DNA of 64,000 bases from Phorcus lineatus. Its lineage: Eukaryota > Mollusca > Gastropoda > Trochida > Trochidae. The notes below the pieces were generated by a model. It was given only the letters and a program-made list of their open reading frames with translations. It was not told where the DNA came from and did not search any database. Numbering within the stretch: the stretch's first letter is position 1; every line of letters starts with the position of its first letter. Below are positions 1-62,188 of the stretch, piece after piece. Location: assembly GCA_921293015.1 (NCBI GenBank), contig OV121095.1, positions 36,119,484 through 36,183,483 on the forward strand, read 5' to 3'. The position numbers and the translations under genes were made by a program.

Positions 1-93
1 TGGCACAAAAATGTTCTCCGTGAATTTCATTGGAGGGCAATGGCTGTATGCTGGCATTGCAGGTGGCAGCTTTCTTCCGGTCACGTGACCTAC

Positions 94-187
94 CTTCACA
101 CGTGGGGCAGCACTGATCAGGACGTGTTATGGGAACCTCACAAGCAGGCCGGGGACACCTTTCAGATAGACACTGGATCTCGCCTTG
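94..187 (-). CDS. Chordin-like protein, exon for the C-terminal half of VWC domain 1 (partial gene)
   Basis: This minus-strand exon encodes 31 codons plus one base. It opens at a good acceptor (cctctgttgcag, then CAAGGC) and closes at donor GAAG|GTAGGT. The peptide begins QGEIQCLSERC and ends CCPTCE. It carries six cysteines in the spacing C-x4-C-x4-C-x9-CC-x2-C, which is the second half of a von Willebrand factor type C domain. Joined in frame (phase 0) to the exon at 778-890, it completes a ten-cysteine VWC module. VWC domains of chordin and chordin-like proteins bind BMP ligands outside the cell. The exon ends in phase 1, so the next exon lies left of this window and the gene is truncated here. 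The exon and domain are seen directly; the family name comes from motif recognition. Other VWC proteins (kielin, crossveinless-2) are less likely. Confidence 0.93.
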
Positions 188-541
188 CTGCAACAGAGGT
201 AGCCAATCAAAGTTCGTTTTGCTTTGATATAAATCTCATTTAAATCTGACGACCCTTATTGTCGTACCCAGGTCAATACTGCAGCGAGGTTCTAGTTGAA
301 GGGTCGAGCTGGTTTTAACGACATTAGATTTAATTATATCTATATCTATTATTCGTCAACTTGTAAGGAAATAGTCAAAGTAGTCAATGCTCAGTATGAG
401 GGCATTGTAACTAATTAAAGAGCTCATAGCAAACTGATATTTTGTAAACATCCATTCATGTCATGTATATATAGTTTTATCTATTGGGCAACAAACCCGT
501 TATTGTTGCATTTAAGTGGGCTACTAATTGAATAGTAAAAT

Positions 542-605
<64 letters not shown>

Positions 606-777
606 AATTAAGTATCTTTCAATTTTCAAAACTGTTTCTTCAAATGATACGTGTCGAACTCCTCGTCTACCAAATACAACTTGGTACAAGGACATGGTTT
701 AGGTCATTTGGCGATCAAACTGAATGATCATGACGCGCTCTAGTCACATGACCACAAGACTGTCACGTGACACTCAC
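188..777 (-). other. Intron 3 of the chordin-like gene (590 bp)
   Basis: The intron is bounded by donor CAG|GTGAGT at its 5' end (right) and acceptor TTGCAG at its 3' end (left). It is a phase 0 intron that splits the VWC domain. It holds only AT-rich sequence and the (TA)n tract at 544-600. Confidence 0.88.
544..600. repeat. (TA)n microsatellite, about 28 units
   Basis: An uninterrupted TA dinucleotide run inside intron 3. It is likely polymorphic and self-pairing. Confidence 0.97.
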
Positions 778-890
778 CTGGTTACATGTACAGTTGATGC
801 ATGGTTTGACAGTGGACTGGTAGGGTTCCAGGGACTGGTGCCATGTCTCACCAACCTCATAGCTCCGCCCGTTCAGAGTACATGTCACTC
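778..890 (-). CDS. Chordin-like protein, exon for the N-terminal half of VWC domain 1
   Basis: A 113-bp minus-strand exon lies between acceptor tctattcctgcag and donor CAG|GTGAGT. It supplies two bases to complete a codon and then 37 codons. The peptide starts VTCTLNGRSYEVGETWHQ, continues with SLEPY, and ends with a C-x2-C-x-C motif (CINCTC). The order Cys, Tyr, Gly-Glu-x-Trp-His, Leu-Glu-Pro-Tyr, then CxxCxC is the signature of the first VWC domain of chordin-like 1 and 2 proteins, where WH and LEPY are conserved. Incoming phase 1 matches the signal-peptide exon at 11,435-11,502, and outgoing phase 0 matches the exon at 94-187. The role by family is extracellular binding and modulation of BMP/TGF-beta ligands. 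No ORF longer than 60 codons covers it, because the coding part is short and has no start codon of its own. Confidence 0.94.
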
Positions 891-985
891 CTGCAGGAAT
901 AGAAAACACTTTGAAAAATGATTTGATTTAAGAGAATTAGTAAGGCAACGGTTTCGATTTTCACACTTTGTAGTTATGCTCCGGA

Positions 986-2650
986 TTCACTGAAATCATA
1001 CACCGGGGTCATGAATTGGAGTTATTCACTGAAATCATACACCGGGGTCATGAATTGGGGTTATTCACTGAAATCATACACAAGGGTCATGAATTGGAGT
1101 TATTCACTGAAATCATACACCGGGGTCATGAATTGGAGTTATTCACTGAAATCATACACCAGGGTCATGAATTGGGGTTATTCACTGGAATCATACACTG
1201 GGGTCATGAATTAGAGTTATTCACTGAAATCATACATCAGGGTCATGAATTGGAGTTATTCACTGAAATCATACACCGGGGTCATGAATTGGAGTTATTC
1301 ACTGAAATCATACACCGAGGTCATGAATTAGAGTTATTCACTGAAATCATACACCGGGGTCATGAATTGGAGTTATTCACTGAAATCATATACCGGGGTC
1401 ATGAATTGGAGTTATTCACTGAAATCATACGACAGGGTCATGAATTGGAGTTATTCACTGAAATCATACACCGGGGTCATGAATTGGGGTTATTCACTGA
1501 AATCATACGACAGGGTCATGAATTGGAGTTATTCACTGAAATCATACACCGGGGTCATGAATTGGAGTTATTCACTGAAATCATACAACGGGGTCCTGAA
1601 TTGGAGTTATTCACTGAAATCATACGCCGGGGTCATGAATTGGGGTTATTCACTGGAATCATACACCAGGGTCATGAATTGGAGTTATTCACTGAAATCA
1701 TACACCGGGGTCATGAATTGGAATTATTCACTGAAATCATACACCGGGGTCATGAACTGGAGTTATTCACTGAAATCATACACCAGGGTCATGAATTGGA
1801 GTTATTCACTGAAATCATACACCGGGGTCATGAATTGGAGTTATTCACTGAAATCATACGACAGGGTCATGAATTGGAGTTATTCACTGAAATCATACAC
1901 CGGGGTCATGAATTGGGGTTATTCACTGGAATCATACACCGGGGTCATGAATTGGAGTTATTCACTGAAATCATACACCGGGGTCATGAACTGGAGTTAT
2001 TCACTGAAATCATACACCAGGGTCATGAATTGGAGTTATTCACTGAAATCATACACCGGGGTCATGAATTGGAGTTATTCACTGAAATCATACGACAGGG
2101 TCATGAATTGGAGTTATTCACTGAAATCATACACCGGGGTCATGAATTGGAGTTATTCACTGAAATCATACACCGGGGTCATGAACTGGAGTTATTCATT
2201 GAAATCATACACCAGGGTCATGAATTGGAGTTATTCACTGGAATCATACACCGGGGTCATGAATTGGAGTTATTCACTGAAATCATACGCCGGGGTCATG
2301 AATTGGGGTTAATCACTGGAATCATACATCAGGGTCATGAATTGGAGTTATTCACTGAAATCATACACCGGGGTCATGAATTGGAGTTATTCACTGAAAT
2401 CATACACCGGGGTCATGAATTGGAGTTATTCACTGAAATCATACGCCGGGGTCATGAATTGGAGTTATTCACTGAAATCATACGCCGGGGTCATGAATTG
2501 GGGTTATTCACTGAAATCATACACCAGGGTCATGAATTGGAGTTATTCACTGAAATCATACACCGGGGTCATGAATTGGGGTTATTCACTGAAATCATAC
2601 ACCAGGGTCATGAATTGGGGTTATTCACTGAAATCATACACTGCAGTCAT
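986..2650. repeat. 39-bp minisatellite, about 42 copies
   Basis: The unit runs from CACTGAAATCATACACCGGG through GTCATGAATTGGAGTTATT. Because 39 is divisible by three, two plus-strand frames stay open for hundreds of codons: one 560 codons from 1,016, the other covering 1,362-2,312. They repeat the 13-residue peptides HELELFTEIIHRG and MNWSYSLKSYTGV. Variation falls at a few fixed positions (ACCGGGG, ACCAGGG, CGACAGG; GGAGT or GGGGT). The rare variant GAACTGG recurs at 1,754, 1,988 and 2,183, exactly 6 and 5 units apart, which points to block amplification. I treat the long ORFs as by-products, since there are no splice or promoter signals and the array sits in intron 2 of a gene on the other strand. 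Confidence 0.96.
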
Positions 2651-2805
2651 ACACTGGAATCATACACCAGGGTTAAACATAGGAGTCATTCACTGTAATC
2701 ATACACTAGGGTCATACACTTGAGTCATACACTTGGGTCATACACTTCATTCATACACCGGGGTCATACACTGGAGTCATACAATAGACTCATACACAAG
2801 GGGCA
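2651..2805. repeat. Degenerate 15-bp edge repeats of the 39-bp array
   Basis: A decayed zone where GTCATACACT plus a short variable tail repeats with a period near 15 bp (for example gtcatacacttgagtcatac). It is derived from the ATCATACAC part of the main unit. Confidence 0.75.
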
Positions 2806-3680
2806 TTCATCATATCAGCAGATCTTAGAAGAGGACTTTTCCAATGGTTCATTTAATTTTTTTTCCAGATGATGTTATCAAATGATATTAATGGATGAAT
2901 TTTCAACGTGGTATCGTTTTCCAATGTCATTCTCTCAAATGATGGTTAAATCAGAATTAAGCCTTTTTAAAGATTTTCAAGGCGGAGATTTAAAGCTAAG
3001 ACGGAGCACTTCGATTTGTCACAATACCTGTCATTCTGCATGCATGTAATTAATATGATTGATGAATGGAGAGAGACAGCGTGGTCTGTCGCCAGTAAGA
3101 CTGTGTTATTCATATCTTATTCGAACTTAAAACAAAACTAGCACATGCGACCAAAGTATGCCAATTTACGAAAGCTTCACTCTTTCATAGTTGTATCTTA
3201 CATAATCAAAATATCCAAAAAAAATCAAACCCTGTCTGTGAAATCTTTCCTTTTCGCAGCAAGACATGTTTTGACAATGTTAGGCGTTTCAATATTCATT
3301 GTCTGAAGGCTCTTTTTTCGAATAAAATAAGCTTATATGCTTCGTTGTATCTATATTTACTTGATTGCCAAGCAAACAGCAATTGCCACGTAGACATTGA
3401 AAAAACCTATGAATAAGAAACCATTAACTGCATCGTGCAAACCTTGGCTTTTTTCAATAAAACAATATTGACGTCACAACGTCCATCATGCGCGTGTCAT
3501 CACCATACCAAAATGATAATAAAGTCGGGTAATAACTATGATTTCATGTTTGAGACATTGTTCAGAATGTCATTAAACTTTGAAGTAACAATATTACTCT
3601 TTCAATAAAAATATCTATTATATCATGAATCAATAATCAATAATTATCTACACAAAGTCATCTATGAACAAGAGTAAAAA
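2806..3680. other. Intron 2, AT-rich, no feature recognised
   Basis: No ORF, exon-like block or repeat family was recognised. It is plain AT-rich intronic sequence between two minisatellites. Confidence 0.6.
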
Positions 3681-3681
3681 A

Positions 3682-4234
3682 AGAATCATGGTAATTATCT
3701 TCACTGAATCAAAACTGAATCATGGTAATTATCTTCATAGAATCAACACTGAATCATGGTAATTATCTTCATAGAATCAACACTGAGTCATGCTAATTAT
3801 TTTCACAGAATCAACACTGAATTATGCTAATTATTTTCACAGAATCAACATTGAATCATGGTAATTATCTTCACTGAATCAAAACTGAATCATGGTAATT
3901 ATCTTCATAGAATCAACAATGAATCATGGTAATTATCTTCATAGAATCAACACTGAATTATGCTAATTATCTTCACAGAATCAACATTGAATCATGGTAA
4001 TTATCTTCATTAAAATCAACACTGAGCCATGCTAATTATTTTCATAGAATCAACACTGAATTATGCTAATTATCTTCACAGAATCAACATTGAATCATGG
4101 TAATTATCTTCACTGAATCAAAACTGAATCATGGTAATTATCTTCATAGAATCAACACTGAATCATGGTAATTATTTTCATAGAATCAACACTGAATTAT
4201 GCTAATTATCTTCACAGAATCAACAATGAATCAT
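3682..4234. repeat. 34-bp minisatellite, about 16 copies
   Basis: The unit is GAATCATGGTAATTATCTTC followed by ATAGAATCAACACT. Variants (TTATGCTAATTAT, TTTTCACAG, TCACTGAATCAAAA) recur in runs, for example the block beginning near 3,682 is echoed near 3,853 and 4,092. This suggests higher-order duplication. Its unit is unrelated to the 39-bp array. Confidence 0.93.
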
Positions 4235-4449
4235 AGGATCATGATTTCATACGTTTTTAATGATCATTAAGTCATAAAATCATAACTTCGTGGCTTGTAG
4301 TTGAACATATCATAGAATATAATATTATGTAGATGGTACTTTGATGTCGTAGTGTGTGTCACGTTATATATTTAGAAAAAATCATTTGTAAGGAGTAAAA
4401 CTCATTCAAAATATGAAACAGATGGAATTTGAATTGTACAACGTCCTCG

Positions 4450-5100
4450 GTGATGACATGGAATTGTAGTGTCATCTGTTTTATGTCAGAACATTTAAAG
4501 GTAATTGTTTTTATTCATTTCATGCATTGTAGGGTCATCTTTTTTATGACAGAACATTTTAGGGTAATTTTTTTTATGTCAGAACATTTTAGGGACATCT
4601 TTTTTATGTCATAACATTTTAAGGTTGTCTTTTTCTATTCATCGAATTGTAGGGTAATCTTTCTTTATTCATCGCATTGTAGCGTCATCTTGTTTTATTC
4701 GTTACATTGTAGGGTCATCTTTTTTATGTCAGAACATTTTAGGGTCATCTTCTTTATGTCATCGCATTGTAGGGTCATCTTTTTTATTCATCGCGTTGTA
4801 AGGTCATCCTCTTTTATTCATCGCATTGTAGGGTCATCTTTTTTATGTCAGAACATTTTAGGGTCAACTTTTTTTTATGTCACCGCATTGTAGGGTCATC
4901 TTTTTTTATTCCTCGCATTGAAGGGTCATTTTTGCTATGCCAGAACATTGTAGGGTCATCTTTTTTATTCATTCCTTTTAAGGGTCATCTTTTTATGCCA
5001 TAGCATTGTAGGGTCATCATTTTATGCCATAGCATTGTAGGGTCATCTCTTTTATGTCAGAACAGTTAAGGGTCATCTTTTTTTTATGTCATCGCATTGT
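4450..5100. repeat. Minisatellite with units of about 30-33 bp, about 20 copies
   Basis: The repeated core is ATTGTAGGGTCATCTTTTTT followed by ATGTCAGAAC or ATTCATCGC. Unit length varies mostly through T-tract length. Plus-strand ORFs here (4,429-4,614 and 4,690-4,893) are repeat translations, not genes. Confidence 0.9.
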
Positions 5101-5104
5101 GATT

Positions 5105-5310
5105 CAAATTCCAACCACGGCGAGGGTGAGGCACAGGTAAGACGCAGGTACATTCACACCTGTGGGGACTGTGAGGAGCCTTGAGACGCCAGGTAGGTAT
5201 ATAAGACTCCAGGTGAGAGGTCCGCCCGAGACTCTCAGGCCTCGCCTATCAATCATACATACTGTACTTACACGGCTTGTGCACTCTTTGGCCTGGGGTA
5301 GAGTCGGACT
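5105..5310. promoter_or_regulatory. GC-richer patch with TATA box and CAGGT/CACCTG motifs
   Basis: Inside AT-rich intron 2 this 200-bp patch is GC-rich and has a TATA-box match (TATATAAG, 5,198-5,205). Repeated CAGGTA/CAGGTG/CACCTG motifs lie within 60 bp on both sides. It could be an internal promoter or an enhancer of the chordin-like gene, on either strand. No coding exon is visible next to it. Confidence 0.3.
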
Positions 5311-5945
5311 ACGCTTCGTTATTATGACAATAACTGGTTCATCAAATGTAGTTCATCAAAAAGGGATAGGCCCATAACTGTGGTTCTGAATGTTAAAAAC
5401 CGTAGGCTGAGATTATTTCTACGTACTCTATTGGTAATTGCCAGCCGCTCGTCGTTGTGATAGCCTGCTGTTATCATATTAATTTAAACGTTAATTTAAA
5501 GTTGGTTATTTCTCCTTTGTTCCTGGTTTTTCGAGTAGATAATGATATCACAATATTGTGAAATTTGTTATTGGCAAGAGGTTCTGTGACGTTTTTCAAA
5601 AGAAATATATGTATTCCTCGAAATCTTCAGAACCTTTTTAGAAAAATGTACGCAATGACTATGACTGCGAAATCATTGAAGCTCTCGTAAAGTTCCCATG
5701 TTTCCAAGGAATCGAATTTTGGAATGAGTAATCTACTTTAACATTCAACAGTTTAGGCAGAGTTATCATGTAAAAGGAAGATCTTATGACTTCATGTAGT
5801 TGAGATGTCGCGGAGGTAACATAGAGCGAAAGTTTAAAAAAAAAAATCTAGCGTTAGTATACTAGTTTACATTCTTAAACTGTTATCCACCTTGAACTTA
5901 TATACAAATAAACTGATGTAAGTTTAATTAACTCTGACAAAAGTA
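5311..5945. other. Intron 2, nothing recognised
   Basis: AT-rich sequence without exon signals or repeats that I can identify. Confidence 0.55.
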
Positions 5946-5961
5946 TTATTGTATAGTTGTC

Positions 5962-6060
5962 CAGCTGCAGCCTGGTGGTCGAGTAGATATGCTACGGTTT
6001 AGTCGGTGCTTGCGATTGTTGACGAGGATGTGGGTTCGAATCCCACAAGAGAATAAACTC
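5962..6060 (+). repeat. tRNA-like SINE head, probably degenerate
   Basis: An A-box-like stretch (GTGGTCGAGTAGATATGCTA) is followed about 50 bp later by an exact B-box context, GGGTTCGAATCCCAC. This is the internal pol III promoter layout of tRNA genes and tRNA-derived SINEs. A cloverleaf with a paired acceptor stem is not evident, so I favour a SINE remnant over a functional tRNA. Confidence 0.4.
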
Positions 6061-7390
6061 GAAATAGGATAAAAAATTACTATCGCAGATGGTGTGCTCA
6101 AGAACACATCGATGTTGTCACACAATTTTGTGCAAAAATATCAATGATACGTTCAGACTAAAGTACATGCATCATTATTACATATTCAGCCACATATCTA
6201 ATGTGTAAACAATACTGTAATCGTCAGACAAAACTGTCACATATTTATTCCCCGTAGTTAATTTAACAAAACGAACAAAACCTCCAAGTTGCATTAGTTT
6301 CGTAAGCCGTATATGACGCGTTGAGAATAAATAGTCGCCGACAAAGAATTTTGCTCGATTCTTATCTAGGCGTGGTAGACACAAGACTGAATCATGGAAC
6401 AATAGGAGGGCCTGCGCTAGTAGTTGGGGTCCCCCCTTGTCTGCCTCTCTTGGCTAAACTGCCGTACTTGGGAGACTGAGATGTTATCGCTGTCTACATT
6501 ACAGGCCTGTCAATATATCTCTAGACTATGACAAGGAGACTACCTTTCTCCGTTTCTTTTCACTGTCAAGAAAAATGTTTTGTAGGTTTTGTATATATGT
6601 GGCAGATACCATCGCTTGATTGTTTCTAATGCGGATGGCTGAAAAGACAGATTTGATAAATTGTCCAAATTGTCCCAAAGAGTCTGTTAGGCGTTGCAGT
6701 CTGTTGTCGTTGTCGTCAACCCTGGACGATTGTAATCTGGCGCTTGTTTCTGACTGGCTGCGAGTTGGGGTACTGTCTGAGTGGGGTTGATATCATCAGC
6801 TAAACACCGGCTTAGGCGGAATATACATTTGATGTGGGGTAATAACACGGGGCTAGTGACAGGGACTAAAGACTGGATGACGGGCTCGTTCTTCAATGTG
6901 GCATTGTTATCTCCCTGAAGGCTCGTACATTAAAACACAATTACTCTGCAGATCGCTTGAGATTATACCGATGGCAACAAAAAGAATGTTTAAGAATATA
7001 AATGCAGAATGGAGTTTAAGCTGCCAACAGAAAGCAGATTTTGCCTTTTCTTTAGAGTCGAGTCTTTTGCAATTACAGTTACAAGTGACCCTATGGAACT
7101 CTTTTTCTTTGTTAGATTTCAATATCCATTCTCTTCCATTTCGAATGAAAGTAGATAAGAATGCTTATGTAAAGGGTTATGGTATAATCAAACTTGCAAT
7201 TTCCTTGCTTGTCTCATGCCGTGAACAGAATATAGTTCTTTTCTCTTTAAGCTTGTCTTGTTTTTGTCTTTTTCAGAGGTTTTGCAGATTTATTTTGTTT
7301 CACCTTTAGGTGAGATTTAGTTTTATTGCCTTTAAAGTGATAATGAATACTGATTATAATGCTCTTATGTGACCCCATCTTCTCCCGAAT
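6061..7390. other. Intron 2, nothing recognised
   Basis: It contains only short ORFs on both strands (for example 6,896-7,309 plus) with compositions expected by chance in AT-rich DNA. No splice-flanked coding block was seen. Confidence 0.5.
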
Positions 7391-7562
7391 GGCTTTAAAT
7401 TGCACCAGTCTCTATCACTAGCTAATTCAAACCTTGCTGCCAACCAGTCAAAGTTCGTGTTTTAAGTGCAACACCCTCTTCGGCGAAAATTTGTAATTCT
7501 GATATGATTTCTCATTGGACTATCGCGATCCGTCGCAGCAGCCTAGACCACAAGCACGGAGA
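7391..7562 (+). repeat. Dispersed repeat, copy 1 (inverted partner at 44.2 kb)
   Basis: About 170 bp starting TTTAAATTGCACCAGTCTC and including CTTGCTGCCAACC, CACCCTCTTCGGCGAAAA and ACTATCGCGATCC. The same blocks in the same order occur on the minus strand at 44,165-44,340 at roughly 80% identity by eye. The family is unassigned. Confidence 0.75.
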
Positions 7563-10120
7563 AGTACGGGAAATGTCGTCCCCCAGTGCTACTCTCTGAC
7601 GAAGAGACTGAGAAGTACACAATGACTGTCATTGATGGACTCTACACTACTTGTAATGCTTAAGCTATTCTCGAGTTTATTCTCCTGATCTAATTGTACT
7701 CTTAACTTTTCTCGCATTTCCTTGTACTCTCCTTTGGAGGAATAAAAGTGTGTATATATAACAGTTGACTTTTGTTTAGTTACTAAAGTGTTATCCCCTC
7801 AATTGAAAGAATGTGACATCGCATTACAGCAACCAAAATTTGTTTTCATTTTTCATTATAAGATTACTTGGAGTCTTACATCAAAACAGCAATTGTAAAA
7901 GCAGTTATCCAAAGACTTTAGTGATAAATGTTTTGCGTTTCTAGACTGTTAGGTGATTGTTCTGCCTGTTTGCTTGACTATATAGTTTTCTTCTTTCCTA
8001 GCAGAGCCATTTTGCTGTTCAAAAACTCTGGGGTGCTTAATTAAGTTCTTTGTGTATATAATACATAATTGTTTTTTACACTTGTGTTTCATAAACGCTG
8101 AAGTGGTGATAATCTTGAACTCTTCCATCGGTTTGATAGTTTCCATTTGGATTGCATAAAATCATTAAACCATACATAACGTTGTTAATATCACAGGTAA
8201 GTTTTACAGTTTCTTATGTTTGTATCACATTAGACTGTGTCCGTAGGAGAATGCTTTATATGATACAAGCACCAATATTGTCAGAAACCAATTGGTTTAA
8301 TTTATGAGGTCAAATCATACGTGAAAAAACATTCAACACGTCTGAACTAGACATACTGTTCTTTGTACACATTATTTGACCCCAGCAATAAAACATGTAC
8401 TAGAACAGATCATTGTATGATCCATAGGCTTTAATAAGGTCAGAATGATTCATCGTGGGGGTTTTAAAAGTCATGAGAAAGTCATGTCACTCCTCATGGC
8501 AGACCGAAACCACATCCCAAAACAGTTTAGAAGTATCTTTGTCGCCGACATGGCCGACACGACTCCAGTGAGTCCGGCATATCGGAGACGAATACACCCG
8601 AACATCTCCAGGTATTTACACAAGCGAGACAGGCAAACCACAAAGAGAGTTATACCTTTTAAACGACTCATAGTAATTGTATCCGGTGATTGAGTCTCGA
8701 GTCAAACGTCAGCATACTGTGTCTATGGGGGCGGGCGAAGGGGCCATCTTATCTCCTACACGTGGCCCAGTCGCCTTCAAAAGGAGCGCTTCAAGTGAAG
8801 CTATGGTGAAACCGCAAGTCAGGATTAGGCCTATTGTGAGAATGGGCTTACTGACTATACGATAATTGACCCTGTCTGGAGGAACTGTAAAGCGGATTAC
8901 CTCTATTTGTTGTATATTAAGAAGAAAATACCAAATATTTACTCAGGTTGTATACAGACTAAGCTGGGGGTATACAGTCTCGTCATTACAGCAAAGCAAA
9001 CTCCCCCGGTGTCATCAATACAGGGGAACTGGAGACACGTACAGAATAAAAACTGGTAATTAAGCGGGCACCTGTCCATACAACCAGTCAGTAATTCATT
9101 GATTTATAAATATAATTTTGTAACGTAAATTTTCTCATAATCATATCTCTTATTCTTGAAACCCTCTTGAAAGTCAGTTCGTAGTTCGTGTCATGCTCTC
9201 TAAACAAAGATAGCTCAGGTCATTCTTCCCACGTATACGCTGTTACAAGAGCAGCGGTTTAAGAGCTAGAATACGATATCCTGATTGGTTGCAATCGAGG
9301 ATTATTGATGCCAGAATTGTGGACATTCGATCGGTTCGGGTAACCGGACTGGAAAAAAATTCACCAGTGCGACGGAAAAGACGAAAGTCAGTCGGTTATG
9401 TTAAACGGTATTTGACTGGATGAGGACTCGTTTCCAGTGTTGTAGATTTTCACCACTAAAGGTTTTGATAGGAACGAGAAATTTGGCCGAGAAATCTTCG
9501 TATTAAGACAGAGGTTGTATAGGAATTTATTTTTGTCATTAATTGATTTAAGTTTTTTGTTGAGAAGAAATCGATTTTGAATAAGGTTAACAAGAGTGAG
9601 TGCATAAACAATTAATTTGATTTTATTTGTAGCTCGAAATTCTAAAGCTGGATTTTCCAATCTAAATGACATGCAAACTCCATGAGTTCGTAAAACAATG
9701 AAGTATAGGTCGCCTGTCAACAATTGTTATTTGGTCAATTCGTCATCAAAATTAATTTTGGTCACTTAATTATGCCCTTTGAACTTTGAACTTTGTCTCA
9801 TGCGCAGTTTAATTTAGTTTTTTTTAACTTAGTAATATTGTTTTCGAGGAGATCAGTAAAACGTAATACAAGACATATAACAATTACCCAAGAAAAGTGA
9901 AGGCTTGTTGATATTCGTACAAATGAATTAGTTCAAAGATTTTTTTCAAGTCAGACTTAAAGAACAATGGAAACCTGTTAAATGTCTATTTCAATCCTCA
10001 ATTTTTTTCATGAATTTCAATCATTTTTAATAACTGTACGGTCAGTTCAACGTACTGGAACAAGAGATGTAAATGGTTGGGTATTGTCATTCCATGAATG
10101 CGATATGGAGACTAGATGCT
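7563..10120. other. Intron 2, nothing firmly recognised
   Basis: ORFs at 8,445-8,693 (plus), 8,866-9,063 (plus) and 9,388-9,723 (minus) have no domain I know and no convincing splice sites. A slightly GC-richer interval lies at 8,490-8,780. The rest is AT-rich. Confidence 0.45.
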
Positions 10121-10124
10121 ACGT

Positions 10125-11115
10125 GTTATGAAGAAAGCTTGTCATGTATTCTGAAGAAAAGTTGTATTGATTTCTAAAGGATATTTGTAAAGATTCCTAA
10201 AGGATAGCTGTAATGTATTCTGAAAACTAGTTATCATGAATTCTGTAGAAAAGTTGTCATGATTTCTAAAGTATATCCATCAAGATTTCTAAAAATAGCT
10301 GTCATGTATTCTGAAGAGTAGATGTCATGTATTCTGAAGAGTAGATGTCATGTATTCTGAATACTAGTTGTCATGTATTCTGAAGAGTAGATGTCATGTT
10401 TTCTGAAGACTAGTTGTCATGTATTCTGAATACTAGTTGTCATGTATTCTGAAGAGTAGATGTCATGTTTTCTGAAGACTAGTTGTCATGTATTCTGAAG
10501 AGTAGATGTCATGTATTCTGAATACTAGTTGTCATGTATTCTGAAGAGTAGATGTCATGTATTCTGAAGACTAGTTGTCATGTATTCTGAAGAGTAGATG
10601 TCATGTATTCTGAAGACTAGTTGTCATGTATTCTGAAGAGTAATGTCATGTATTCTGAAGAAAAGTTGTCATAAATTCTAAAGGATATTCGTCAAGATTT
10701 CTAGAGGATAGCTGCCATGTATTCTGAAGACTAGTTGTCATGTATTCTGAAGAGTAATGTCATGTATTCGGAAGAAAAGTTGTCATGATTGCTAAAGGAT
10801 ATACATCAAGATTTCTAAATGTAGCTATCATGTATTCTGAAGACTAGTTGTCATGTATTCTGAAGAGTAATGTCATGTATTCTGAAGAAAAGTTGTCATG
10901 ATTTCTAAAGGATATCCATCAAGGTTTCTAAAGGATAGCTGTCATGTATTCTGAAGAGAACATATCCGCATTTTAAAGAATATATTATGGGTGCCATGGT
11001 TTGTAAATTATAGCTTTTATGTTTTCTCAAGAGTACCTGTCATGTATTCTAAAGAGTACCTGTCATGAATTTGAAGCGTAGATGTCATGATATCTAAAGG
11101 AAAGCTGTAACATAT
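10125..11115. repeat. 23-bp minisatellite with interspersed longer units
   Basis: The core unit TGTCATGTATTCTGAAGAGT plus AGA alternates with a form ending ACTAGT. Less regular units (TTTCTAAAGGATATCCATCA) are interspersed at both edges, and a block of about 110 bp is itself repeated near 10,650, 10,760 and 10,870. It is the fourth array in intron 2. Confidence 0.93.
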
Positions 11116-11434
11116 TCTTAAAGATGGCATGTGCTCTTAAGGACACATGACCTATACTAAATTTAAGTTTTGGGACAATCTTTCTTAAAATCTTTGTTCA
11201 AATCAAATTTGAAGATTTGTCTTTTCTCGTAAGCTATTTCTGTCATGTTAATTCCATCATAGAGTTCAAGCGCCTTACGTAATTTCTCACCACTTACCAG
11301 TTTCTCACTGCACTCGATGATATTCGGCAAAACAAATGAGATAGTCATTTATATGTATCATATAGAATCGAATTATCAATAAAAATGGAAAAAACTGAAT
11401 TGAATAGTTCCAGTACGTGAAAAGTACAACTCAC
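11116..11434. other. Intron 2 next to exon 2; minus-strand ORF of doubtful status
   Basis: A minus-strand ORF (11,348-11,163, 61 codons, ending KDFKKDCPKT) lies directly downstream of exon 2. No acceptor gives the phase 1 continuation from exon 2 with a good polypyrimidine tract. Only a weak site (ttaacatgacag) would join in frame and add a short tail ending in a stop. I regard this as intronic, or at most a minor truncated isoform. Confidence 0.35.
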
Positions 11435-11502
11435 CTGTTCTGATACTCGCAGCTTGGATCTGGCTCAGTGCAAATATCCACAGAAAGGCTACAACCATTA
11501 TC
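11435..11502 (-). CDS. Chordin-like protein, start codon and signal-peptide exon
   Basis: The minus-strand exon opens at acceptor gtattctcctgcag, has four untranslated bases (GATA), then ATG at 11,498. It encodes 21 codons plus one base. The peptide MVVAFLWIFALSQIQAASIR plus T has a hydrophobic core and small residues (AAS) at the expected cleavage point, so it is a good signal peptide. The donor is ACAG|GTGAGT, phase 1, which joins exon 3 to make Gly-Val-Thr-Cys. This places the first VWC cysteine a few residues after the predicted mature N-terminus, as in CHRDL proteins. The acceptor before the ATG implies at least one upstream 5'UTR exon, for which 21,944-21,996 is the candidate. Coding positions are 11,498-11,435. 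Confidence 0.86.
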
Positions 11503-14500
11503 CTGCAGGAGAATACACATTGTCAAGAAAAATGTATTTAAAGTCACTATAGCACGCTTTTTAGGTTCAAATTGGCTATTCTAAGGCATAAAGGCACTCA
11601 CTTTAGCTTTCTATCGATGCAAAGAAATACTTATTAATCTTTGCAGTTGACCTGTTATCGACAATGAAAAAGTTGATACGGCCGAAGTCGGCTTAGAGAT
11701 ATATAAAACAATCTATTGTTAGCTGTGCACCAAAATGGAGAAAACAATATGGACAGTTGAAAACGGCTGAACTAGAAATTTGTGCAGCTTTTAATTCACC
11801 ATAACTATGAACTGAGAATAAAGAATGACGAGTTCTTTATTAAAGCAATATCGTAACTTTTTTTTTACAAAATGTAGTTCATGAGATTTGTTGCATATAT
11901 GTTAAATAACTTACGAGGTTGGTTACCTGAGTGCGGATCGTAAGTCATATCGAGAGATATGCATTATCTGCATTCGTTTTATAAACAAAATATTGGTCTG
12001 CACTAGTGCTTATAAGATCACTTCAAAATTCGTAATAATCGAACTTGAACATTCAAACACTAAAGTATGTTACATTACCGTCATGCATTACTCAAGTATA
12101 TATGATTATCTGTCGCCACATTGACCCGATGGATGATGAATGGCGTATGTAACAGGATTGACTGAAAAAGGAAAAACGTTTTCCTCCACAATATTTTATC
12201 ATATACTTATATAGTCCTTTTGAGATATTATCCATCTTTCAAATGAGGTTATCATAGGGATGAAAGTTGGTATCACATATCAAAAATGATACAAATGGTT
12301 CTAAGTGAACACAAATTGGTTTAACATGTAACAGCTTTTGGTATATGCAGTACTAGTACCTGGTAAAATCATTGAAGACTTTGAGTTAAAATCTGAAAAT
12401 AGTTCATCAAAGTAAACAGTATGCAACGTGCAATATGGTTCTTGGTGAATGTGGCAACTTTCTTTGAAGCTTAAGACGAAATAGTTGGTAAAGATTTTCA
12501 TCCCCTCAAAGTTCTAGATCTTTTATTTGTTATGCGAGGAAATAAAAAAATATTTGCCTCTATATAACAAAGCTTAATCAGCAGTATAAAATCTTAACCA
12601 TGCACTGTTGGTAATGTAGTGTTCACATTTAAAGGAACAATACGACGTAATTCATCTTGCGGAACCTAGTAAGGAATATTCTTTAATGCTTAGAAACATT
12701 TCCGCGAAATTCCATTCCATCAAATTATGATGGTCTTAACATCCTATTGAAAATAATTCTGAACATACAAACATTCAAACAAATGGAAAAATATATTCAA
12801 ATTAAGATGCAATTGATTCGATATGTTTGAAATATGAATTAAACATATGGATATATCGAAAACGTCTTTTAAGGCTTATTTGCACTTCGGGTTATTTCGT
12901 TAATGACAAACGAGAGACATGTGACACCCAAAAAAGGTTAAACCTCATAACAATGATTGATATGATGGTAACAGTCAAATTAAATATTTAATTGCGCCGT
13001 TAAGCATATTTCTTTAAAAAAAGTAAAGACTCATACTTAAAGAATAACATTAAATATAATCTTTATTTATATCTATAGCTGATTTACAAGCTAATAAGGT
13101 TGAAATCAATAACAAGCTTTGTAAGTATCCTCTTTGTGATAAAATGACAGAGAAGCATACGTTTATATAAAACGATATCCATTGTTATTGCATGTTTTGC
13201 ATGTACTTGAATTTTAAATTTGACTTAACATTATATGAAATCTATAAGACATGTATGTAGATGAGTTTATAATAAGTTGTGCAATATGATTCTAAACCGA
13301 AAATGATCAAAACCATAAAAAGAATTAAAAATTCGAAAAATCAACCGAAACAAGCCAAAGTTAATTATGACGTATTCGTATTCATATAAAGAATCAAGCA
13401 ACCAATATCACCTTTAAATGACAGTTTCCAAAATATATTTCTACCTGGAGAATGCATATGTCCTTTTCAAAGCAGAAAAGACCAGTGTTATTATGTTAAA
13501 AAACGATACAAAGAATGTAGCCCTACATCATATTCACAACAGGTAGAGAGAACTATGATTCGTATTTGACACAAACAAAGTACACACGTCATAAGAATGA
13601 AATGGAATCAGCTTGACTTTTAGCCTTATCCTTGCCTACACAGTGCAGGACATGCATCAAAATATATATTGAACACATTTTTCTAAGTTTTTTTCCATTT
13701 GATTAAAATCTAAATTAAAAACTAAATTGTTAGGGTACAAATAATTCGACTAAAAGGTCTAACTTTAATTGTAAAGTCGCGCACCATTTCATAGAATATT
13801 TTGTTGCAAAAATATTGATTAAAATGTTAATATCCTTTATTTTTGTGTCATTTAACAAATATTTAATTTAATAATATTTTGATATTGTATAAAGTTGACA
13901 AAAAAAAGGTAAAATAGAATTCGATGCAAAACTTAGAAATTTATATATGAGGTAAATAAATACATACATGTCATCCATCAAGTTGTCTTGGAGAAAATAG
14001 CGTCTCAAATAACTTCTTAATGTTAATAAACAAATAGATTTAACAAACAACACGTGATATAAAACCGTTTGAAAACTGACATGATAATACATCTGTGTTT
14101 CAATTGGATAATGCGCTGCCCAATCAGGACGCTTCTTGAAGAAATTAATCACGTGATATAACACCAGGAATGGCGGCATTCATTTCATAACTAAATATGC
14201 ATTCGTTACACACTCATCGTAATTGTTTACCTGCATATAAGTATTCTCAGCATTTGACACATGTAAAAACAAGAAGCGTTTTCTTTGTTGATATTTTCTT
14301 ATTCTCTTTTCTTTGTCTCTATGTATAGTTTCTATATATTAGGTCTAAATGCTAACTTCTTTAAGTGAACAGTTTATTTTTTCCGACTCTTTAACTATGT
14401 ATATGAAATAACAGTATAATAAAGAAGTGATAATGTCGTTTTTATGTAACTGTTAACCATCACCTCCTAAATGTTAGGTTCGGTGGTGACGTACATTCTA

Positions 14501-31012: not shown

Positions 31013-31635
<623 letters not shown>

Positions 31636-32178: not shown

Positions 32179-33060
32179 ACTGTATCATCTTCTGCATTCT
32201 TTTATTTCTACTTTCGTTTTCAACACGTGTCACATCCTGCGTTCCCCTGCCTTGAACGATTTTATTGACAGACAATGTAAGACAGATTATTAATCATTAA
32301 AATAATTAATATGAGACGGAATAAAGAGGATATTCTTATCAATAGTAATCGCTTATACATTGCACATAAAAACTTTTAAAAAACAAATCACTCCACAGCA
32401 ACTTCAAGAACTTCAAGTTTGATAATAACTGTTTTTTACACAATGAATTGCGATTTTTCCGTAGAGATAGGGTTATAACATATCTTATAATATATCTTAC
32501 AACACTATATATGGATGTGTTTGCAGGAACAAAAAAAAGATTAAAATCAAGATTCACAGTGAAGATTAGAAGGAACTTTTCATGGTTTCAGTCTTCGTTT
32601 CGCATGATTTACTACAAATTGATTACGACTTCTCCGAAGGAAATATTAACCAAATTAATGCTGTTCGGTTGATATCCTAAGCCCCGTTTTTATTTGCATA
32701 TGTAATGTTACTTTATGACATAGTATAGATGAAAACTGTTGTGTTGGACAATGTGCACACGTATTTCAATCAATCTAATATAAAAATCAATATTTTGAAT
32801 GCTTATTCATCAGGTAGGCCGTGGTTCCATAAACTGATGAGTTACACAAAATGATGTTTTAGAGAGAAAAAATATCAAATTTCCTTTTTTTAAAAATATC
32901 ATGATATTAATATTTTCATGGCAAAGTCCTTGACTGAGATACCGGTCTGTGGAACAAGACCCATTTATATCACAGTTAAAATCAAATAATGCATACAGGT
33001 AAACGTCTTCACATTTAACCATCTTTACAGAATAATGAAAATACATTCCTCAAAACGAAC
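32179..33060. other. Intergenic, nothing recognised
   Basis: AT-rich. Short ORFs on both strands appear to be chance. Confidence 0.5.
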
Positions 33061-37337: not shown

Positions 37338-37472
<135 letters not shown>

Positions 37473-62104: not shown

Positions 62105-62138
62105 ACTACTGCTACGACCACTACTACTACTACTACTA

Positions 62139-62188
<50 letters not shown>

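Follow-up and report, generated by a model that had tools for sequence, protein, structure and literature searches.

Three short exons on the minus strand of a 64,000-nucleotide stretch of the genome of the gastropod Phorcus lineatus (the window; C32:36119484-36183483 in an assembly of 957.8 Mb and 74 contigs) form, as we hold with high confidence, the 5' coding part of a single-copy chordin-like gene of the CHRDL1/2 type. The gene has three VWC domains and its structure can be followed exon by exon up to the last junction; on sequence criteria the encoded protein most likely comprises a signal peptide, the three VWC domains and then a basic, CHRDL-type C-terminal region. It has no close second copy and is distinct from a chordin-type locus found elsewhere in the genome. 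The window covers approximately the first fifth of the protein (90 of 412 to 443 residues, depending on the model), with the remainder encoded to its left (Table 1). Most likely, this is an ordinary new member of a well-known family.

Table 1. Coordinates of the exons, introns and minisatellite arrays. Positions are relative to the window, with negative values lying to its left.
Feature	Position	Strand	Description
Coding exon 1	11435..11502	-	68 nt; TGCAG before, GTGAGT after; likely signal-peptide exon
Intron 1 of coding region	891..11434	-	10.5 kb; four long minisatellite arrays inside
Coding exon 2	778..890	-	113 nt; TGCAG before, GTGAGT after; first VWC1 half (VTCTLNGRSYEVGETWHQSLEPYQSTVKPCINCTCNQ)
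Intron 2	188..777	-	phase 0; (TA)28 run at 544-600
Coding exon 3	94..187	-	94 nt; TGCAG before, GTAGGT after; second VWC1 half (QGEIQCLSERCPRPACEVPITRPDQCCPTCE)
Start of intron 3	1..93	-	gene carries on left of window
Exon 4	-1335..-1483	-	VWC2 with exon 5
Exon 5	-1970..-2066	-	VWC2 with exon 4
Exon 6	-4160..-4257	-	VWC3 with exon 7
Exon 7	-5389..-5611 (or -5542)	-	VWC3, then strongly basic linker
Exon 8	-6083 to between -6343 and -6436	-	C-terminal region
Exon 9	-7930..-8069	-	C-terminal region, ends at stop
Minisatellite, 39-base unit, 42.5 copies	985-2641		intron 1
Minisatellite, 34-base unit, 16.2 copies	3683-4234		intron 1
Minisatellite, 30-base unit, 21.2 copies	4463-5100		intron 1
Minisatellite, 23-base unit, 35.8 copies	10139-10957		intron 1

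The three exons had been proposed in an earlier sequence-only reading and lie exactly where that reading placed them, on the minus strand, flanked by AG and GT sites and with matching phases. Translation begins at an ATG at 11498-11496, and conceptual splicing gives end phases of 1, 0 and 1 for exons 1, 2 and 3, respectively, to yield a stop-free peptide of 90 amino acids (MVVAFLWIFALSQIQAASIRTGVTCTLNG...CCPTCE). Since an acceptor directly precedes 11502, a non-coding 5' exon further to the right is suggested. The earlier description of the gene as cryptic reflects merely the shortness of the exons and the position of the window edge. Likewise, the claim that all coding exons are under 60 codons is true of the window but not of the sequence beyond it, exon 8 being at least 261 nt in length and exon 7 either 223 or 154 nt.

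The joined peptide matches the Pfam VWC profile over its full length (positions 1-57 of 57) with an E-value of 1.2e-10 and a score of 42 bits, against a cut-off of 27.6, and the matching stretch contains ten cysteines together with WH and LEPY motifs. A search of solved structures using the 121 amino acid form obtained by reading through exon 3 returned five sequences at E-values up to 1, the best of which was chordin (9rd6, E=2.7e-15); the remaining four were fibronectin sequences, with E-values from 1.7e-4 to 0.37.

We inspected 98.9 kb to the left of the window and found that the gene continues, still on the minus strand of the same contig, within the first 8.1 kb. The later VWC exons that the sequence-only reading had predicted are present here and, with the Pfam match inside the window, bear out its proposal of a chordin-like VWC gene at this locus. 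Scored separately against Pfam VWC (cut-off 27.6), the two domains reach 34.5 bits in the case of VWC2 (E=2.5e-8) and 41 bits in that of VWC3 (E=2.4e-10), whilst the joined 412 amino acid model scores 82.1 bits in three stretches. Each of the three domains has ten cysteines (two more are found in the linker that follows VWC3) and each is encoded in the same manner, with phase 1 on entry, phase 0 between the two halves and phase 1 on exit, the split falling in every case one or two residues past the first-half C-x-C. So regular a construction argues strongly, and independently of databases, for a real modular gene. The W-H motif is found in VWC1 and VWC3 and is absent from VWC2. Exons 4-9 are in phase at every junction except the last, which is unsettled. 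Exon 7 is 223 nt in length in our model; use of a second possible in-phase donor, lying 69 bases earlier, would shorten it to 154 nt, at the cost of some of the linker and nothing else. Two partial copies of the 3' end of exon 6, splice donor included, are present in the intron that follows (at about -4313 and -4725); they measure ~45 bases or more, begin 87 and 499 bases past the original and could act as decoy donors.

The C-terminal region was compared with the Pfam profile CHRDL_1_2_C (PF19548). Joined without a gap, exons 8 and 9 match positions 23-110 of 120 with a score of 20.4 bits (E=6.5e-4 and 6.6e-4 in two scorings), below the cut-off of 27. The best-scoring join between these exons lacks a GT donor, the intron in this case beginning GAATGG. 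Inserting a further exon of 93 nt gives a fully canonical model, with a score of 17.2 bits (E=0.0065). No match to the profile is seen with two other canonical joins, one of which gives the 412 amino acid model, or with exon 8 or exon 9 alone, and the match is lost in all four forms in which either the middle or a flank was blanked with X residues, so that this masking control did not discriminate between the joins. The direct join of the exon 8 donor AAAG/GTAAGA to exon 9 was rejected here: although it is canonical and keeps the phase, the match to CHRDL_1_2_C disappears. A first search for micro-exons between exons 8 and 9 found none, and a relaxed search several candidates, two of which were scored. 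On the sequence, a CHRDL-type tail is likely, the exon 8/9 joins modelled here being candidate junctions. Human CHRDL1 has a similar stretch ahead of its last cysteines, a likeness that serves as a lead.

To what extent is the gene unique in the genome? A genome-wide protein search with a 421 amino acid query, from which exon 1 was left out, gave 32 matches at E≤1, eight of which are exons 2-9 themselves. Strong matches are confined to the chordin-like locus, the rest being mostly VWC loci (best E=1.7e-7), and this search found no second gene with the same tail. Searching the genome with PF19548 by single exons likewise gave nothing credible, the single match (on C16, E=0.114) being interrupted by six stops. 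A genome-wide search for the CHRD domain gave a lone match at E≤1, on C29, which at 23.7 bits falls just under the cut-off of 24.1; the sensitivity of this search for intron-split domains is low. Within the 29.8 kb inspected there, VWC-matching frames lie on both sides of the CHRD match and on the same strand, an arrangement like that of chordin, so that chordin proper is most likely encoded separately, on C29.

Other VWC sequences in the genome are organised in various ways. Many VWC-matching places are clustered at C19:19438446-19620800, including seven matches with an identical match range spaced ~2 kb apart (19500802 to 19513171), suggestive of VWC genes or exons arrayed in tandem. At C9:35387737-35388927, six VWC matches lie in one open frame of 450 codons with no introns between them, whereas in the chordin-like gene each VWC domain is divided between exons. 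On C12 there are 16 haemocyanin beta-sandwich matches in two clusters of eight, a domain and a number indicative of a mollusc.

How well does the gene fit the CHRDL1/2 type? Vertebrate CHRDL1 and CHRDL2 have three VWC domains. The gene described here resembles them in having three VWC domains (each above 27.6 bits) and no CHRD match, and probably also in a signal peptide and a C-terminal region weakly matching CHRDL_1_2_C; it differs from them in that this match falls below the curated cut-off and in the very basic linker (KKRKNRKRDCKKRRGK...) that follows VWC3. The 412 amino acid model has no CHRD match, the sole genomic match being that on C29 in a search of low sensitivity. With Chordin/Sog the gene shares VWC domains, chordin also being the top solved-structure match, but the chordin-like locus has no CHRD match; in particular, the same low-sensitivity search gave none between VWC1 and VWC2, in the 1.4 kb that separates exon 3 from exon 4. 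Evidence for a brorin-like (VWC2/VWC2L) protein was not obtained: the VWC2L_2nd profile scores 23 bits, under its cut-off of 27, and overlaps the VWC match. Crossveinless-2 (CV-2, BMPER) and kielin have longer VWC arrays and VWD/TIL domains; the present gene shares their VWC domains but differs in having three of them and a CHRDL-like tail. VWC aside, the 412 amino acid model matches two Pfam profiles, VWC2L_2nd below its cut-off and TILa at E=5.1.

Alternatively, the locus could hold a real multi-VWC BMP-modulator gene from outside the CHRDL orthologues, such as a lineage-specific one whose basic C-terminus merely resembles that of CHRDL; this would be compatible with a C-terminal Pfam score that is under the cut-off and hinges on the unsettled join, and with the many other VWC places in the genome (at least 38 matches at E≤0.001). 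We consider this quite unlikely: of the three VWC domains, VWC1 and VWC3 carry a W-H motif, and the tail, albeit with a score under the threshold (E=6.6e-4), aligns with the greater part of the CHRDL C-terminal profile.

Exon 3 has an open frame that continues past its donor and over the window edge, giving 97 codons from stop to stop, and this raises the question of whether the gene might instead encode a short, secreted single-VWC protein, either alone or as a second isoform. Beyond the donor at 94 there are 50 open codons before the stop at -56 to -58. Against this, the tail so produced has no Pfam match, the donor (GAAG/GTAGGT, phase 1) fits exon 4, and six more exons follow. Read-through was dropped as the main C-terminus of the protein because exons 4-9 were found in phase, and we regard a short protein of this kind as very unlikely. 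Secretion of both the complete three-VWC protein and the short read-through form from this one locus seems more doubtful still; in that case, the short form could bind BMP without the other domains.

Of the three exons in the window, that encoding the signal peptide is the weakest supported. Exon 1 is one of two among ten candidate first exons in the window that combine a hydrophobic core with a cleavage motif, and both start-context positions are as expected. Under a strict filter (strong donor, good acceptor and full start context), which was set with prior knowledge of exon 1, it is the sole candidate to pass in the window, and none passes in 20 random windows. A signal peptide in exon 1 is likely, judged from hydropathy and the cleavage motif.

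The VWC1 exons were also assessed with an exon-pair scan, in which phase-compatible candidate pairs on both strands were prefiltered for two cysteines and a minimal score and then scored with a control VWC profile built from 18 peptides from other loci of the same genome, none of them on C32 (23 were found and five dropped for length). With 49.9 bits, the pair 890-778 and 187-94 ranks first of 488 prefiltered pairs in the window; the remaining five pairs shown are variants of it or share its exon 3. The top pairs in ten first-order Markov windows score 5.3-8.1 bits; the earlier judgement that the arrangement is unlikely to have arisen by chance is thereby upheld. The exons are short, and random sequence readily yields hydrophobic first-exon candidates (0-4 per window at the loose level in 20 random windows), but the probability that the three pieces are a chance coincidence is negligible in view of the Pfam VWC score, the exon-pair scan score and the matching continuation of the gene outside the window. 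The case shows that reading raw sequence can locate short-exon genes correctly.

What might the protein do? By analogy with its family, it would be secreted and would bind BMP ligands through its VWC domains, contact most likely being made by VWC1 and VWC3, the two that carry the W-H motif. Bound BMPs would be kept from their receptors, tuning BMP signalling outside the cell. Secretion, BMP binding, the direction of the effect and the site of expression are all points that we infer from such comparisons. According to PMC6270503, CV2 makes contact through an N-terminal Clip and subdomain 1, with the disulphide between the first and fourth cysteines setting the Clip. The same text describes the likeness of CV2 VWC1 to the domains of chordin and CHL2 as low, with no general code known (PMC6270503), and it is for these reasons that BMP binding by the present protein is something we infer. 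CV2 VWC1 has eight residues (Leu1-Ala8) ahead of Cys9 (PMC6270503); eight residues would also precede the first cysteine here if the signal peptide were cut after SQIQA, which is a guess, and the likeness is one of count, not homology.

The sequence-only reading had further suggested that the gene is of interest for axis and shell-field patterning. This finds no support: a locus with the layout of chordin lies elsewhere in the genome, and the accessible portion of PMC11226491 ties molluscan dorsoventral patterning to chordin, not to chordin-like. In the open-licence literature, as judged by titles and the opening lines of abstracts, our searches turned up no work on a patterning role of a chordin-like gene in molluscs. 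In the annelid Capitella, the single chordin-like gene (Ct-chd-l) has been knocked down by CRISPR, with asymmetry phenotypes in some of the animals, clear in 10 of 47 (PMC11067212); these phenotypes suggest that chordin-like genes can matter in spiralian development. The present work adds one mapped chordin-like gene in a mollusc genome that apparently also keeps chordin proper. An animal with both genes makes a useful, if unsurprising, comparison; loss is also reported in PMC9977687.

Beyond the chordin-like gene itself, the search for spliced genes in the window consisted of the VWC exon-pair scan. Ten of the 23 stop-to-stop frames of at least 100 amino acids in the window were scanned against Pfam and none reached the cut-off, the best being a TraG P-loop domain match (E=0.0032, 16.6 bits against 25.8) that we do not believe. 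Of the remaining 13, eleven are simple or tandem repeats by eye, and those at 13868-14179 (minus strand) and 32370-32672 (plus strand) are non-repeat frames by the same inspection. The window contains no tRNA, and nothing in it reaches the gathering score of an Rfam family. The 39-base minisatellite starts 95 bases from exon 2 and holds a stop-free frame of 574 codons, which looks like a repeat artefact. Further simple repeats, namely long and perfect runs of the dinucleotide CT and one run of the trinucleotide ACT at 91%, are found at 31015-31140, 37339-37469 and 62105-62188.
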